NCBI RefSeq assembly: GCF_031457495.1
Contig: NZ_JAVDWM010000001.1
Coordinates: forward strand, 2,530,001-2,594,000
Origin: Sphingopyxis sp. BE259
GTDB taxonomy: Bacteria > Pseudomonadota > Alphaproteobacteria > Sphingomonadales > Sphingomonadaceae
Direction: 5' to 3'
Length of the DNA: 64,000 nucleotides
A program made the translations under genes and the position numbers. The notes beneath the pieces were generated by a model. It searched no databases, had not been told where the DNA came from, and saw only the letters and a program-made list of their open reading frames with translations. Positions 4,503 through 62,288 of this stretch are shown in pieces; the first letter of the stretch is position 1, and every line of letters begins with the position of its first letter.

Positions 4503-4627
4503 CACCAACCCTTGTCAAAATCGGCGCGCATTATCAACCGGTCGCGGCGCGCAAACGCCGCATCGTCCACAGATTTGCTCGCGACGGCCCCTTGACCCCC
4601 GCCGCGCGCCGCGCTCTATCGGCGGCC

Positions 4628-5626
4628 ATGCCCGATTCATCCCGCCCCAAACGCCCGCGCGTCATCGTCACCCGCCAGTTGATGCCGCATGTCGAGGCGC
4701 GCATGGCCGAATTGTTCGACGTTGCGCTGTCGGCGCATGACCACGCCTTCACCAAGGACGAACTGAAAGCCGCAGTCGCCGACTGCGACGTGTTCGTGCC
4801 GACGGTGACCGATGAAATCGACGCCGAGGTGCTGGCGGCGGCGGGCGAGCGATTGAAGCTGATCGCCAATTTCGGCGCCGGGGTCGATCATATCGATCTG
4901 GCCGCGGCGCGCGCCAAGGGCATCATGGTGTCGAACACCCCCGGCGTGTTTACCGAGGACACAGCCGACATGACGATGGCGCTGATCCTGTCGGTGCCGC
5001 GGCGGCTGGCGGAAGGCGAGAAATTGATGCGTTCGGGGCAATGGGCGGGCTGGGCGCCCAGCGCGATGCTCGGTCACCGCGTCGGCGGCAAATTGCTCGG
5101 CATTATCGGCATGGGCCGCATCGGGCTGGCGGTGGCGCGGCGCGCGCGCGCATTCGGCCTATCGATCCATTATCACAACCGCCGCCGCCTGCCCGAGGCG
5201 ATCGAGGAGGAACTGGGCGCCAGCTATCACGCCAGTGTCGATACGCTGCTGCGGATCAGCGACATCGTCACCCTCCACTGCCCGCACACCGCCGAGACGC
5301 ACGAGATGATCCATGCGGCACGGATCGGGTCGATGAAGCCGACCGCCTATTTGATCAACACCGCGCGCGGCGAGATCGTCGACGAAAAGGCGCTGATCGC
5401 GGCGCTCCAGACCGGGCGCATCGCGGGCGCCGGGCTCGACGTTTACACCCACGAACCCGCGGTCGACCCCGCGTTGCTGGCGCTCGACAATGTCGTGCTG
5501 CTCCCGCATCTGGGCTCGGCAACGATCGAGGGCCGCGAAGCCTCGGGCGAAAAAGTCATCGCCAACATCCGCGCCTGGTGCGACGGCCACCGCCCGCAGG
5601 ATCAGGTGCTGGAGGGGTGGGCTTAG
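4628..5626 (+). CDS. D-isomer-specific 2-hydroxyacid dehydrogenase (glyoxylate/hydroxypyruvate reductase type)
   Basis: NAD(P)H-dependent reductase of 2-keto acids, 332 residues. The Rossmann motif GMGRIG is at about 161-166. The catalytic triad typical of the family is visible as Arg about 247 (NTARGE), Glu about 276 (THEP) and His about 294 (LPHLGSA). The match is closest in character to D-glycerate dehydrogenase/GyaR; the exact substrate is inferred. The open frame reaches back to a TTG at 4592, but family similarity starts just after the ATG at 4628. The following 30 bases lead into a palindromic repeat. Confidence 0.88.
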   Translation: MPDSSRPKRPRVIVTRQLMPHVEARMAELFDVALSAHDHAFTKDELKAAVADCDVFVPTVTDEIDAEVLAAAGERLKLIANFGAGVDHIDLAAARAKGIMVSNTPGVFTEDTADMTMALILSVPRRLAEGEKLMRSGQWAGWAPSAMLGHRVGGKLLGIIGMGRIGLAVARRARAFGLSIHYHNRRRLPEAIEEELGASYHASVDTLLRISDIVTLHCPHTAETHEMIHAARIGSMKPTAYLINTARGEIVDEKALIAALQTGRIAGAGLDVYTHEPAVDPALLALDNVVLLPHLGSATIEGREASGEKVIANIRAWCDGHRPQDQVLEGWA

Positions 5627-5656: not shown

Positions 5657-5743
5657 CTCTGGATTGCTTCGTCGCTGCGCTCCTCGCAATGACGAAGCCT
5701 AAAAGAACTGCCGTCATTGCGAGCGAAGCGAAGCAATCCAGAG
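5657..5743. repeat. Palindromic repeat, family B (two arms)
   Basis: Left arm CTCTGGATTGCTTCGTCGC... and right arm CGTCATTGCGAGCGAAGC... face each other across about 17 bases. Related copies are at 15565, 43553, 50291 and 57526, with a single arm at 6054. The right arm ends two bases from the stop codon of the GIY-YIG gene. Confidence 0.92.
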
Positions 5744-5745
5744 TG

Positions 5746-6048
5746 TCACTCGCTGCCATCGACGATCTGAAACCACAAATCCTGCCAGAGCGGATTGTCA
5801 GCTTCGATCAACGCGAGCTTCTTAGCCCGGCTTCCGGCTTTGATCTGCTTTTCGCGCGCGATGGCGGCTTCCATCTTGGCGTGGATTTCAAACCAGACAA
5901 GCAGCTTGCAGTCGTAACGCGTTGAAAAGCCGCCGAGGCCTTCGCGATGCTGCCATATCCGTCGAACGAGATGCCCTGTCACACCCGTATAAAGCGTTCC
6001 GTTGCGCCGACTGGCGACGATATAGACTGCTGGCAGGCGTTCGCGCAT
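5746..6048 (-). CDS. Small GIY-YIG nuclease-domain protein (COG2827 type)
   Basis: Single-domain GIY-YIG nuclease of 100 residues. The motif elements are VYIV (about 8-11) and LYTGVT (about 18-23), the catalytic Arg in LVRRIWQH, and Glu in MEAAIAREKQIK followed by the typical basic RAKKLALI segment and a terminal LWQDLW. The family is related to the UvrC nuclease core; the cellular role of these minimal proteins is unsettled. The open frame continues upstream through a palindromic arm (translating as VIASEAKQS) into the next gene, but homology begins at MRERLPAVYIV, so the ATG at 6048 is chosen. There is no obvious Shine-Dalgarno; only five bases separate it from the repeat. Confidence 0.85.
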   Translation of the reverse strand: MRERLPAVYIVASRRNGTLYTGVTGHLVRRIWQHREGLGGFSTRYDCKLLVWFEIHAKMEAAIAREKQIKAGSRAKKLALIEADNPLWQDLWFQIVDGSE

Positions 6049-6053
6049 GGCCG

Positions 6054-6085
6054 CTCTGGATTGCTTCGCTTCGCTCGCAATGACG
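6054..6085. repeat. Palindromic repeat, family B (single arm)
   Basis: A single arm (CTCTGGATTGCTTCGCTT... to ...CAATGACGA) directly upstream of the GIY-YIG gene and seven bases from the stop codon of the NMO-family gene. It is the inverted partner of the arm at 5712-5743 on the other side of the gene. Confidence 0.9.
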
Positions 6086-6092
6086 AGGGTTG

Positions 6093-7496
6093 TTAATCCC
6101 CCGTCAAAATCCGATCCACCAGTTGCTTCACTGTCGGGGTGAAGTTGTTCGAATAAAAGGGATCGGTCTTGAAATTGAATGCGGCGTGGCCCGCGAACAT
6201 CAGATTTTGTTCGGGGTCGCCGCCGTGCGCGATGTCCTGCAACGTTTTCTGGATGCAAAAGCTGCGCGGGTCGGCGAGGTAGCCGGTGGTGTAATCGTCA
6301 TGGTCCTTCCACGACGAAAAACCGCAATGCGACAGGCAGCCCATGCAGTCGGTCTGGTCCTTGCGGATCACCGCCTTGTCGGCGTCGGTCACGAACACCA
6401 CCGTGTTGTCGGGGGTCTTCAGCGCCTCGGTATAGCCTTCGGCCGCCCAGTCGCGGGCGCGGGCCCGATCATGGGGGGTGACCCAGAAATTCTTGCCCTT
6501 TACCCCGACGTCGAGCTGGACGATATGATCGCCCGCTTCCTGCTTCGAATAGGGAATCTGGCGTTCCGACCGCGCTTCGAGGTCGCGCAAGAAGGGGGTG
6601 CGGACCGCGCTGGAGTAAAAGCCGGTCGGCGAGAAGCGGTGCAAAAGCACGTCGCCGTCGTCGAGGGTGCGAAGGCGATCCTTCCACGCCTGCGGGATCG
6701 GGCTTTCCTCGGTGAGCAGCGGCCGGGTGCCGTACTGGAACACGATCTGGCCCAACTCGGGATTGTCGATCCAGTTTTCCCAGTCGCGCAGATACCACAC
6801 GCCGCCCGCCATCACGATCGGCACCGTATCGGCGATCCCCTCGGCGCGCATCGTTTCGCGCACCGCGGCGACGCGCGGATAAGGATCCTGCGGGACTAGT
6901 GGATCCTCGGCATTCGACAGGCCGTTGTGGCCGCCTGCCAACCAGGGGTCTTCGTAAACCACCGCGCCCAGCAGATGCGGCACCTTATGATAGGCCCGCT
7001 TCCACAGCGCGCGAAAGGCGCGCGCCGAGCTGATGATCGGCAGATACATGACATTGTGGCGCTCGGCGATTTCGCTGAGCTTGTACGGCATCCCGGCGCC
7101 GCAGGTGACCCCGGCGACCATGCCCTTGGTCCGCGCCAGCACGCCTTCCAGAATCTGCTGCGCGCCGCCCATTTCCCACAGCACGTTGATGTTGATCGCA
7201 CCCTTGCCGCCCGACACCTCATAAGCGCGTTCAACCTGGGCCACCGCGCCTTCGATGCCGTATTGGATCAGCTCTTCGTGGCGCTCGCGCCGGGTCAGCG
7301 CATTGTAAACCTGCGGGATGATCTTGCCCTCGGCGTCATAGCTGTCGGCGTTGACCGCAGACACGGTGCCGATGCCGCCCGCCGCGGCCCACGCGCCGCT
7401 CGACATATGGTTGGTCGCCGACACGCCCTTGCCGCCCTCGACCAACGGCCAGACTTCGCGTCCGCCGTAAAGGATGGGCTTCAATCCTTTGAACAT
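6093..7496 (-). CDS. NAD(P)H-dependent flavin oxidoreductase, nitronate monooxygenase family, with C-terminal Cys cluster
   Basis: FMN TIM-barrel protein of 467 residues. The flavin/substrate region is seen in VTCGAGMPYKL (about 130-140), the catalytic His motif AGGHNG (about 187-192) and the phosphate-binding IVMAGGVWYL (about 227-236). Family members oxidise nitronates or reduce quinones or enoyl groups; the substrate here is unknown. It is longer than the usual 320-350 residues. The extra C-terminal part (from about 340) carries Cys 384, 387, 391 and 414 in a C-x2-C-x3-C...C arrangement that looks like an iron-sulfur or zinc site. The frame opens upstream to 7583, but ATG 7496 (MFKGLKPIL) begins the conserved part. 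Confidence 0.82.
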   Translation of the reverse strand: MFKGLKPILYGGREVWPLVEGGKGVSATNHMSSGAWAAAGGIGTVSAVNADSYDAEGKIIPQVYNALTRRERHEELIQYGIEGAVAQVERAYEVSGGKGAININVLWEMGGAQQILEGVLARTKGMVAGVTCGAGMPYKLSEIAERHNVMYLPIISSARAFRALWKRAYHKVPHLLGAVVYEDPWLAGGHNGLSNAEDPLVPQDPYPRVAAVRETMRAEGIADTVPIVMAGGVWYLRDWENWIDNPELGQIVFQYGTRPLLTEESPIPQAWKDRLRTLDDGDVLLHRFSPTGFYSSAVRTPFLRDLEARSERQIPYSKQEAGDHIVQLDVGVKGKNFWVTPHDRARARDWAAEGYTEALKTPDNTVVFVTDADKAVIRKDQTDCMGCLSHCGFSSWKDHDDYTTGYLADPRSFCIQKTLQDIAHGGDPEQNLMFAGHAAFNFKTDPFYSNNFTPTVKQLVDRILTGD

Positions 7497-7598
7497 TTTA
7501 GATCTCTTTCTCTCCACCGGCCGTCCATTTTTCAGCCAGTCCCCGTGCCGGTTCCGTAAGCGGAAGCGCGCGGCGAAAGTCAATGGTTCCGCCGCTGG

Positions 7599-15564: not shown

Positions 15565-15640
15565 CGTCATTGCGAGCGAAGCGAAGCAATCCAGGGCGTG
15601 ACAAGCCGCACTGGATTGCTTCGCTTCGCTCGCAATGACG
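15565..15640. repeat. Palindromic repeat, family B
   Basis: Nearly perfect inverted arms CGTCATTGCGAGCGAAGC... and ...GCTTCGCTCGCAATGACG around a 16-base loop, between the convergent cysH and dnaB genes. It is the cleanest short form of the family that also encloses the GIY-YIG gene. Confidence 0.93.
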
Positions 15641-43552: not shown

Positions 43553-43648
43553 CGTCATTGCGAGGAGCCGAAGGCGACTCGGCCATCCAGGGCGCGCGTA
43601 AACCGCTCTGGATTGCTTCCCCCGGCTTTCGCCGGGGTCGCAATGACG
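43553..43648. repeat. Palindromic repeat, family B (diverged)
   Basis: Begins CGTCATTGCGAGGAGCCG and ends in GGGGTCGCAATGACG. The arms are less conserved than at 15565, and the right arm contains an inserted CCCCGGCTTTCGCCGGGG mini-hairpin. Confidence 0.8.
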
Positions 43649-57525: not shown

Positions 57526-57608
57526 CGTCATTGCGAGGAGCGAAGCGACGCGGCAATCCAGAGCGCGCGTAAACCGCTCTGGATTGCTTCGCTTCGCTCG
57601 CAATGACG
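57526..57608. repeat. Palindromic repeat, family B
   Basis: Arms CGTCATTGCGAGGAGCGA... and CTCTGGATTGCTTCGCTT...GCAATGACG around the spacer GCGCGCGTAAACCG, starting three bases after the DUF3089 stop codon. Confidence 0.92.
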
Positions 57609-60623: not shown

Positions 60624-60642
60624 TCCGCCCGTTCCCCACACT

Positions 60643-60720
60643 CGTCATTCTCGCGAAAGCGGGAACCCAGAGCGCGCGTCGGTCTACCTATCCTGAGTTC
60701 CCGCTTTCGCGGCAATGACG
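60643..60720. repeat. Palindromic repeat, family C
   Basis: Arms CGTCATTCTCGCGAAAGCGG... and ...CCCGCTTTCGCGGCAATGACG, each with one base different from the consensus, in the gap before the convergent Hsp70-like gene. Confidence 0.9.
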
Positions 60721-60758
60721 AGGTTGGAAATGGAACGGCAACAGTAGCGACACCCACA

Positions 60759-62060
60759 TCAAACCGCCCACTCCCCCGGATCATCCGCCTCGCCAATCAA
60801 CGCCAGTCCATGCGCGATCGACGTCAGTTCGCCGCCGCCCGCAATCCGCTCCGCCCCGAACCGCCGTTCGAACAGCGCGCGGATCGCGGGGATCAGCGAC
60901 GATCCACCGGTCAGGAACACCCGGTCAATGCCCGCCGCCGCCACGCCCGCCCGAACCAGTGCCGCATCCATCGCCGCCTCGATCCGCCGCAGATCATCGG
61001 CGATCCACGCCTCGAAATCGGCGCGGCGCACCACGGCCTCGATCGCGATCCCATCGCCCGAAAAGCGAAAATCCGCCTCTTCCGCGCTCGAAAGCGCGCG
61101 CTTCAGCCGTCCCACCGCGTCGTACAGCGGAAACCCCTGCTCATGTTCGATCAGCGCGATCATCCGCCCGATCGGTTCGGGATCGACCGCATCGCGCTGC
61201 AACCGCTCCAGCTCGCTTAACGTGCGCCGGTTGCGCATCAGCGCCAGCCGCGACCAGTCAGCAAAATCGCGGAAATGCCCGCCCGGAATCTCGAGCAATT
61301 TGTCGAACGAGCGGTACAGCCCGCCCTTGCCCAGCAAAGGCAGCACCAACTTGTCGACAATCCGGTAGTCGAACCGGTCCCCCGCAATCCCGATCCCCGC
61401 CGACGCCAGCGGCACGCAGCGCCGCGGCGCCCCCGGTTCGGCGACCCGCACGATCGAAAAGTCGGTCGTCCCGCCGCCGAAATCGGCGACCAGCACCGTC
61501 GCGGGTTCGGTCAACCGCGCCGCATAGCTGTGCGCCGCGCCCAGCGGCTCGTGCACATAATATATCTCGGTGCCGAACGCGCCGAGCATCGCGTCATAGC
61601 GTTGCCGCGCCAACGCCGCATCGGGCCGCGCCCCGGCATATTCCACCGGCCGCCCGACGATCACCCGCCGCGGCAGCGTGTCGAGCCGCCCCCCCGCGTG
61701 CGCGACCAGCCGCTGCAGGAACAGCCGCCCCAGATCCTCGAACCGGTACGGCTTGTTGAAGATCAGCGCCCGCTCGAACGACGCGCTCGCGGCAACGCTC
61801 TTGAACGACTGGACAAAACGGCTGTCGAGCGGCGATTGCAGATATTCGGCGATCGCCCACGGCCCCGCCTCATGCGCCACCCCCTGCCACGCGCGTTCTT
61901 CTTCCCAGAAACACAGCGCCGACCGGAACACCGCCCCGGTCGCGTCGTCCCCGGCAAACTCCACCAGATCCGACCCGCCCTGCCCGTCGGTCAAGGCAAC
62001 CACCGTATTGGTGGTCCCGAAATCGAGCCCGAGCGCGCGCGCCGTGGCATGGCTGGTCAT
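60759..62060 (-). CDS. Hsp70-family protein, YegD-like
   Basis: Actin-fold ATPase of 433 residues. Nucleotide motifs: GLDFGTTNTVVAL (about 11-23), VADFGGGTTDFSIV (about 190-203) and VFLTGGSSLIPAIRALF (about 387-403). It lacks the peptide-binding domain and lid of DnaK (about 640 residues), like E. coli YegD. A chaperone role is assumed from the family, not shown. ATG 62060 begins MTSHATARALGLDFGTT; the frame to 62120 is an unsupported extension. No J-protein gene nearby. Confidence 0.88.
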   Translation of the reverse strand: MTSHATARALGLDFGTTNTVVALTDGQGGSDLVEFAGDDATGAVFRSALCFWEEERAWQGVAHEAGPWAIAEYLQSPLDSRFVQSFKSVAASASFERALIFNKPYRFEDLGRLFLQRLVAHAGGRLDTLPRRVIVGRPVEYAGARPDAALARQRYDAMLGAFGTEIYYVHEPLGAAHSYAARLTEPATVLVADFGGGTTDFSIVRVAEPGAPRRCVPLASAGIGIAGDRFDYRIVDKLVLPLLGKGGLYRSFDKLLEIPGGHFRDFADWSRLALMRNRRTLSELERLQRDAVDPEPIGRMIALIEHEQGFPLYDAVGRLKRALSSAEEADFRFSGDGIAIEAVVRRADFEAWIADDLRRIEAAMDAALVRAGVAAAGIDRVFLTGGSSLIPAIRALFERRFGAERIAGGGELTSIAHGLALIGEADDPGEWAV

Positions 62061-62179
62061 GGCGGGCTCCTGCGGGGGTTGGCGGGCGGCGCCTATTGCA
62101 TGGGGCGCGGCGACGGGCAAGGCGGAGACGGACGCGGTTGACGATCCATGTCGAACCGTCTGCGGCGTCCCTACACCCT

Positions 62180-62258
62180 CGTCATTCCCGCGAAAGCGGG
62201 AACCCAGGGCGTGCGTCGGCCGATCCCACCCTGGGTTCCCGCTTTCGCGGGAATGACA
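62180..62258. repeat. Palindromic repeat, family C
   Basis: Consensus-like copy (CGTCATTCCCGCGAAAGCGG...) in the 447-base gap between the Hsp70-like and SPOR genes, which holds two repeats and a terminator but no gene. Confidence 0.93.
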
Positions 62259-62288
62259 AGCTCTATCAAGTCAGCGACCTTCTAAACG

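Follow-up and report, generated by a model that had tools for sequence, protein, structure and literature searches.

Small GIY-YIG nucleases as probable partners of CGTC-tagged REP palindromes in Sphingopyxis and other bacteria

The nuclease gene of the window and its palindromic arms

The window, i.e., the whole 64,000-nucleotide stretch of the Sphingopyxis sp. BE259 genome analyzed here, harbors a small GIY-YIG nuclease gene enclosed by two inverted copies of a short repeat, and the locus raises the question of whether the nuclease and the repeat belong together in function. The original prediction, made from the sequence alone, had placed the gene 2 and 5 bases from inverted 32-base arms, and this was confirmed here for the gene at 5746-6048 and the arms at 5712-5743 and 6054-6085 (Table 1). 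Both arms represent one 32-mer, CGTCATTGCGAGCGAAGCGAAGCAATCCAGAG, in inverted orientation. A third arm, separated from the left arm by 17 bases, follows downstream of the nuclease gene, where its core was detected with up to one mismatch in 17/17 orthologous loci. The upstream side of these 17 loci carried a tag-outward arm core in 13, a whole doublet in 3, and only an inward core in 1. Owing to the third arm and the varied upstream side, the arrangement "arm, gene, arm" forms the usual core of a structure that extends further.

The ~100-residue nuclease contained PF01541 as the only domain found, with a score above the cut-off, and no NCBIfam family exceeded its cut-off for this protein. The putative family name, COG2827, is that of the original prediction. 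The active-site Tyr, Arg, and Glu of GIY-YIG enzymes have a catalytic role, and Y18, R28, and E65 were invariant in the family alignment of the window nuclease (16 rows).

Table 1. Coordinates of the nuclease locus and of the short doublets in the window
Feature	Position	Strand	Remarks
GIY-YIG nuclease gene, 100 aa	5746..6048	-	ATG 6048-6046, TGA 5748-5746; PF01541 E 4e-13
Left arm	5712..5743	+	CGTC tag outward; 2 bases off stop codon
Right arm	6054..6085	-	Identical inverted copy; 5 bases off start codon
Third arm, long variant	5657..5694	-	Past left arm
Neighbor gene	6093..7583	-	One border of insertion site; presumably nitronate-monooxygenase-like
Convergent neighbor gene	4592..5626	+	Other border of insertion site; presumably 2-hydroxyacid-dehydrogenase-like
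Short doublet of window arm	15565..15640		One hairpin, z -14.1
Short doublet of window arm	50291..50372		Fold z -5.0
Short doublet of window arm	57526..57608		Fold z -8.9
Diverged short doublet of window arm	43553..43648

The genome consists of one 3.67-Mb contig, in which the window-arm pattern was present in 106 copies (51 + 55), the reversed-pattern control giving 0. Tag-outward pairs, 20–22 bases apart, numbered 39 and made up 78 of the 100 arm places listed (hand count). The core GTCATTGCGAG, with up to one mismatch, showed 13 matches in the window against 2.2 expected, a number reached in none of 100 shuffles; two of the 13 (23007 and 34511) stand alone and resemble chance matches. The short arm pairs predicted earlier at 15565, 50291, and 57526, and in diverged form at 43553, were all located. 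Three of the doublets, folded as DNA, formed long hairpins (z -5.0 to -14.1); the lone window arm folded weakly, with an imperfect 5-bp stem and a z of -0.1. The doublet spacer followed the consensus CCAGAGYGG, ~9 bases, and CCRCTCTGG, and in the gene-bearing copy the nuclease gene replaces only the central loop (~9 bases) between CCAGAG and CTCTGG. The window arm starts with a CGTC tag, as do many other arms, and the tag was not clear in three arm families of the same genome (at L002, L003, and L005). A CCA-like tail was present as AATCCAG in the window arms; among the 57 distinct arms from named genomes, most had CCAG or CCAT.

Two further observations concern other doublets of the window. 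At the convergent site 57526-57608 and its orthologous sites (L266-L295), the doublet families differed between Sphingopyxis species, with ATTGCGAG, CAATCTCC, GAGCGAAGTCGAG, and CCCGGACTTGATCCGGG types being present, as if doublets swap or the site is favored. Two ATTCCCGCG-type (dRS3-like) doublets, 60641-60726 and 62174-62260, flank a gene at 60759-62120 (- strand), which we take to be Hsp70/actin-like from its appearance.

According to the available text of PMC3733652, CGTC-tagged REPs constitute one of two large REP superfamilies and apparently have no dedicated transposase. The same text describes the CGTC superfamily (Di Nocera, De Gregorio and Rocco 2013) as including Neisseria dRS3 and Rickettsia RPE-4/RPE-6, with a CGTC tag, AT next to the tag, a CCA tail, mostly inverted dimers, and a mostly intergenic location as its traits, and with alphaproteobacteria as its main hosts, among which S. 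chlorophenolicum and S. wittichii are named (PMC3733652). The ATTCCCGCG-type arms, with an 8-bp stem and a 4-base loop, have the sizes that this text gives for CGTC-1, whereas the window arm, with its shorter imperfect 5-bp stem, differs from the stem of 8–9 bp and loop of 4–5 bases given there for the superfamily (PMC3733652). The present arms share its tag, the AT beside the tag, the CCA tail, the inverted dimers, the largely intergenic location, and the alphaproteobacterial hosts; by these traits, the arms appear to fit the CGTC-tagged REP superfamily. The two named hosts are presumably both sphingomonads.

Flanking arms at other GIY-YIG genes and their match to nuclease subfamilies

For other GIY-YIG genes, the best inverted repeat between the 250 bases upstream and the 250 bases downstream of the nuclease match was scored, and a Smith-Waterman (SW) score of at least 16 was counted as a pass. 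The source genome has eight PF01541 matches, one of which is UvrC-like (a 755-residue frame, L007, which we take to be UvrC) and has no flanking repeat. Six of the seven non-UvrC genes were flanked by inverted arms of six different sequences, i.e., the types ATTGCGAG, CCCGGACTTGATCCGGGG, CCCCCGCGAAGGCGGGGG, CCCCTGCGAAGGCAGGGG, CCTGCGAATGCAGG, and GAGCGAAGTCGAG; the seventh, L001, scored 11, which is below the threshold. The six arms differed in repetitiveness in a 404-kb genome sample, three having 15, 11, and 5 matches, one having 2, and two having none. The genes L001 and L002 (G000:C1:1821073 and 2953556) belong to another, more distant GIY-YIG type (MxFWTY...); L002 adjoins GAGCGAAGTCGAG-type long palindromes, and at L001 palindromes were seen by eye only further downstream.

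Across the four samples, arms flanked 146 of the 182 unique GIY-YIG loci (own genome 6/7, relatives 62/69, class-wide 16/29, and named genomes 62/77). The flanks of most sampled GIY-YIG genes are thus not unrelated, as the original prediction had required, and this extends well beyond sphingomonads. The counts were made after removal of UvrC (L007), the window-gene duplicate L039, the duplicate L126, and L156-L158, which are the same contigs as L071, L072, and L077. As controls, 3/330 ORFs of the own genome passed, as did 1/30 loci of the neighboring gene and, when more distal flanks at the named loci were paired, 0/71 and 0/73; on these controls, a chance or hot-spot association was rejected. 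In addition, 99.5% of 4000 random positions scored 14.5 or less. The inverted-repeat score was kept because a generic detector of "GTC plus hairpin" proved too permissive, finding both arms outward at 94/182 loci vs. 33/330 ORFs.

The remaining 36 of the 182 loci, including 15/77 named ones, were below the threshold. Three extra many-gene genomes gave 7/20 passes, with three loci already counted and 6/17 passes among the new loci; these 17 stand outside the 182, and together 152/199 pass. Several loci below the threshold showed two arms by eye, with stem differences at paired positions, which makes the score a conservative one for them; the class-wide rate (16/29) nevertheless remains weaker. 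The arm-flanked named hosts include Sphingopyxis, Novosphingobium, Erythrobacter, Pseudomonas, Pseudoxanthomonas, Luteimonas, and Sapientia, and also MAGs labeled SAR202, Anaerolineae, Planctomycetota, and Hydrogenedentota. The named misses include loci labeled Nitrosomonas, Elusimicrobia, and Dehalococcoidia, together with a number of loci from Sphingobium and Erythrobacter. Small GIY-YIG genes numbered up to 9 per genome in a relative and 11 in one genome of the class. It was also observed that in some subfamilies the frame runs into the downstream arm, as in L065, L088, L092, L094, L101, L104, and L108, and that nuclease C-termini in this group are encoded by the palindrome (e.g., ...MDAETSSA and ...GSSPG).

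The arm sequence and the nuclease clade had been expected to co-vary between genomes, and they did so. With flank-homologous pairs excluded, a Mantel test of arm against protein similarity gave r 0.59 over 146 loci (null maximum 0.158, 1000 permutations), a value to be read with the fact that only ~350 flank bases were compared for L069-L108, where some homology may be missed. The correlation was r 0.69 within the genus (63 loci, null maximum 0.185) and r 0.64 over the 17 distinct genus loci (null maximum 0.414). Among these 17 loci, a common arm was found in 8/8 pairs with a protein similarity of at least 0.8, all 8 stemming from two subfamilies only, and in 0/1 pairs at 0.7–0.8, 4/26 at 0.6–0.7, and 0/101 below 0.6. 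On a FastTree tree of the nucleases, the arm label changed 22 times vs. a shuffled mean of 69.3, and 0/200 shuffles reached so low a count; the tree was built from 101 columns and has many forks open, near-copies favor such clustering, and the 8 unlabeled arms were counted as a group of their own. The GGGCTTGACCC arm group was not clustered on the tree (4 changes vs. a shuffled mean of 4.9). The 62 arm-flanked named loci, retrieved with one query protein, carried TCCCGCG-type arms in 61 cases and exactly ATTCCCGCG in 46, loci with other-phylum labels being among those with such arms. In the 57 distinct arms of this set, an 8-bp stem was 85% Watson-Crick in register vs. 20–43% when slid, and one stem position was T-A in 38 and C-G in 16. 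Hence, arms are specific to nuclease subfamilies in these data.

Site history and arm copy number in Sphingopyxis

The clade of the window nuclease was present in 17 of 80 Sphingopyxis genomes, in all 17 at one site, with flanks ~80–93% identical, one near-identical pair aside, and one gene of this clade was seen per genome. The occurrence of a single conserved site in the 17 carriers suggests that the window copy is old and was vertically inherited within Sphingopyxis. Genus-wide, the 63 arm-flanked loci fell into only 17 flank clusters, and the other subfamilies were placed at other sites. The reading frame was intact in most of the copies read, and the decayed ones include L052, with a stop, and L055, which ends prematurely. 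In L053 and L054, from the near-identical genomes G016 and G079, the window-clade gene has a disrupted start, and the upstream arm of G016 is shortened as well.

Among the best 30 of 78 loci of the neighboring gene, the nuclease gene was present in 7, and the other 23 lacked both the gene and window-type arms, 300 bases being examined where the next gene was unrecognized. At least four gene-less sites (G077, G020, G033, and G045) consist of a bare short convergent gap, and seven gene-less sites hold other palindromes, as judged by eye. Of the terminal inverted repeats and target-site duplication of a classical IS or MITE pair, inverted arms are present, and no duplication was seen when filled and bare sites of diverged species were compared by eye; no transposition event was seen either. 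The original prediction had named three outcomes that would speak against it, i.e., mostly unrelated flanks, no co-variation of arm and clade, and gene-less loci keeping both arms; none of these appeared, owing to the flanking rate, the co-variation, and the joint absence of gene and arms at the gene-less sites.

The number of arms followed the cognate gene in three families across the 80 genomes, which include the source genome. The median number of window-type arms was 67 in the 17 gene carriers vs. 6 in the other 63 genomes (p 5e-8); for CAATCTCC-type arms it was 39 in at least 8 carriers vs. 1 in 72 others (p 4e-5), and for ATTCCCGCG arms 49 in at least 6 carriers vs. 5 in 74 others (p 0.0012). 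These p values ignore species relatedness, the carriers of the CAATCTCC and ATTCCCGCG clades are those among the matches listed, so that a few may be missed, and genomes with decayed or start-disrupted copies (G022, G026, G016, and G079) were counted as carriers. Six non-cognate gene-arm pairs were compared as well, five of which gave p 0.013–0.033 and the sixth 0.45. As five non-cognate pairs were also below 0.05, part of the copy-number link reflects a shared repeat-rich background; the cognate signal is stronger than this background. G041 has 83 window-type arms and no window-clade gene. The source genome has 49 ATTCCCGCG arms, and none of its eight GIY-YIG genes has a ATTCCCGCG arm; its locus L008 carries the related CCCCCGCG arm.

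A proposed REP-nuclease partnership, its rivals, and known systems

A gene flanked by its own repeat, short doublets, and vertical inheritance resemble the arrangement of RAYTs and GTAG repeats, and a partner or mobilizer role is proposed on this basis. The best reading of the sequence comparisons appears to be a partnership between REP and nuclease that operates in the manner of REP-RAYT but through an unrelated enzyme; the nucleases would be dedicated partners, and probably mobilizers, of CGTC REPs. A functional partnership of the two is very likely, whereas the actual mobilizing role of the candidate nucleases is given as somewhat probable. The system looks RAYT-like in that each repeat family has a single stable gene instead of an autonomous element that multiplies. 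The prediction of an autonomous element with short derivatives was supported in part: the REP-RAYT parallel, with the gene placed in the loop of a doublet of its own REP, is strongly supported, and no autonomous transposition was seen, the gene copy lying at one site in 17 species, target duplication not being observed, and some arm-rich genomes having no cognate gene.

In the proposed mechanism, stand-alone small GIY-YIG nucleases would act in trans as partners of CGTC-tagged REP palindromes, and each subfamily would recognize its own arm through the hairpin and the tag. The source element would be the arm-gene-arm unit, with the short arm-spacer-arm doublets as its non-autonomous derivatives. 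Doublets may be amplified when the nuclease nicks the tag and hairpin in single-stranded DNA, the joining step being done by host repair or replication. GIY-YIG enzymes hydrolyze DNA without the covalent intermediate of RAYTs, and strand joining would thus need host help. Recognition, nicking or cutting, and any part in dispersal are what we infer here, and the whole explanation (partner, source element, and amplification) is considered to be on the probable side. It is about an even question whether these tiny hydrolytic nucleases form a new class of mobile element, spread over several phyla, that recognizes and disperses subfamily-specific CGTC-tagged hairpins. The likelihoods given for the different readings overlap because the readings are not mutually exclusive.

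The rival that survives best, though unlikely, is a domesticated hairpin nuclease that trims or resolves its cognate REP hairpins or cruciforms, with the arms regulating the gene and with dispersal being past or due to others. It is consistent with the vertical inheritance, with the intact frames in most copies read, and with RAYTs, for which the available text of PMC6006769 likewise describes, as a general rule, a single full-length gene for each REP type. The scattered presence (17/80 genomes) and the decayed copies (L052 and L055), however, do not suggest a needed function.

We consider it rather unlikely that the nuclease is a homing-like parasite of REPs, which cuts the doublet loop and has its gene copied in by host repair via the arms, the REPs spreading otherwise. 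An active homing gene should occupy many doublets, but one window-clade gene was found vs. at least 39 empty doublets in the source genome, and the abundance of arms follows the cognate gene, which homing alone does not predict. In favor of homing are the exact position of the gene in the doublet loop, where it replaces ~9 bases, and the subfamily specificity for arms, which fits a target-specific endonuclease; GIY-YIG is moreover a homing-endonuclease fold in the available text of PMC1564403.

A third gene or a RAYT elsewhere might mobilize the short doublets and carry the arm-bounded nuclease gene as cargo, which would suit those arm-rich genomes that have no cognate nuclease. RAYTs are rare in the genus: the RAYT-type transposase domain PF01797 was matched in 15/80 Sphingopyxis genomes, with 65/80 having none, and a RAYT of the source genome was ruled out as the mobilizer since PF01797 had no match there. 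For the 10 loci examined out of the 17 PF01797 matches in the genus, no CGTC-arm core of the three families sought was found, and in 0/10 did a CGTC arm form the top-scoring inverted repeat of the flanks; two of these loci, L301 and L305, are cut by contig ends and have misplaced flanks there. The PF01797 genes L298, L302, L303, and L304 have flanking inverted repeats unrelated to CGTC arms. A recurrent single protein family with subfamily-matched arms is also not expected of cargo, and this reading is improbable. Least probable is that doublets gather between convergent genes as terminators and the gene lies nearby by chance or common site preference, a reading which would suit the different palindrome families found at the same convergent sites in different species, but which is opposed by the contrast of 146/182 loci with 3/330 ORFs, by matching close arms on both sides, and by the arm-clade co-variation.

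If the REP-nuclease partnership with mobilization is true, a ~100-residue protein would disperse DNA by hydrolytic cutting and host repair; in the literature searched, such a route was seen for none of the REPs. The origin of CGTC REPs, among them the dRS3-type repeats reported without a mobilizer, would then be accounted for, as would the abundance of small GIY-YIG genes in some genomes (up to 9 and 11). As these genes lie between palindrome copies in many bacteria, and as related nucleases tend to share a palindrome that recurs across the genome, the small GIY-YIG nucleases are good candidates for the long-missing spreader of a major class of bacterial repeats.

No link between GIY-YIG genes and REP-type palindromes was found among the literature matches listed, a search outside which most subscription journals and preprints lie, so that one could be missed. 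The nearest solved relatives by profile are the UPF0213 small GIY-YIG proteins (PDB 1zg2, E 1e-12; 1ywl, E 9e-10), which are likewise small and single-domain and are named only as hypothetical proteins. The homing endonucleases of the I-TevI type have the GIY-YIG fold, and their genes resemble the window gene in the same catalytic fold and in being embedded in a repeated host element; the window nuclease is unlike them in its ~100 residues with only PF01541, in its REP palindrome flanks, and in the single gene of its clade seen per genome. The CGTC palindromes, which the available text of PMC3733652 describes without an associated transposase, are here tied to a concrete gene family, subfamily by subfamily. 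The closest parallel is the REP-RAYT system (REPtron), in which the gene is likewise flanked by inverted copies of its matched repeat and many short inverted doublets are present. REP-RAYT differs in pairing an HUH single-tyrosine transposase with GTAG repeats, whereas here an unrelated PF01541 GIY-YIG nuclease is paired with the CGTC tag; if the nuclease does mobilize the repeats, this enzyme class would set the system apart from REP-RAYT as a new kind.
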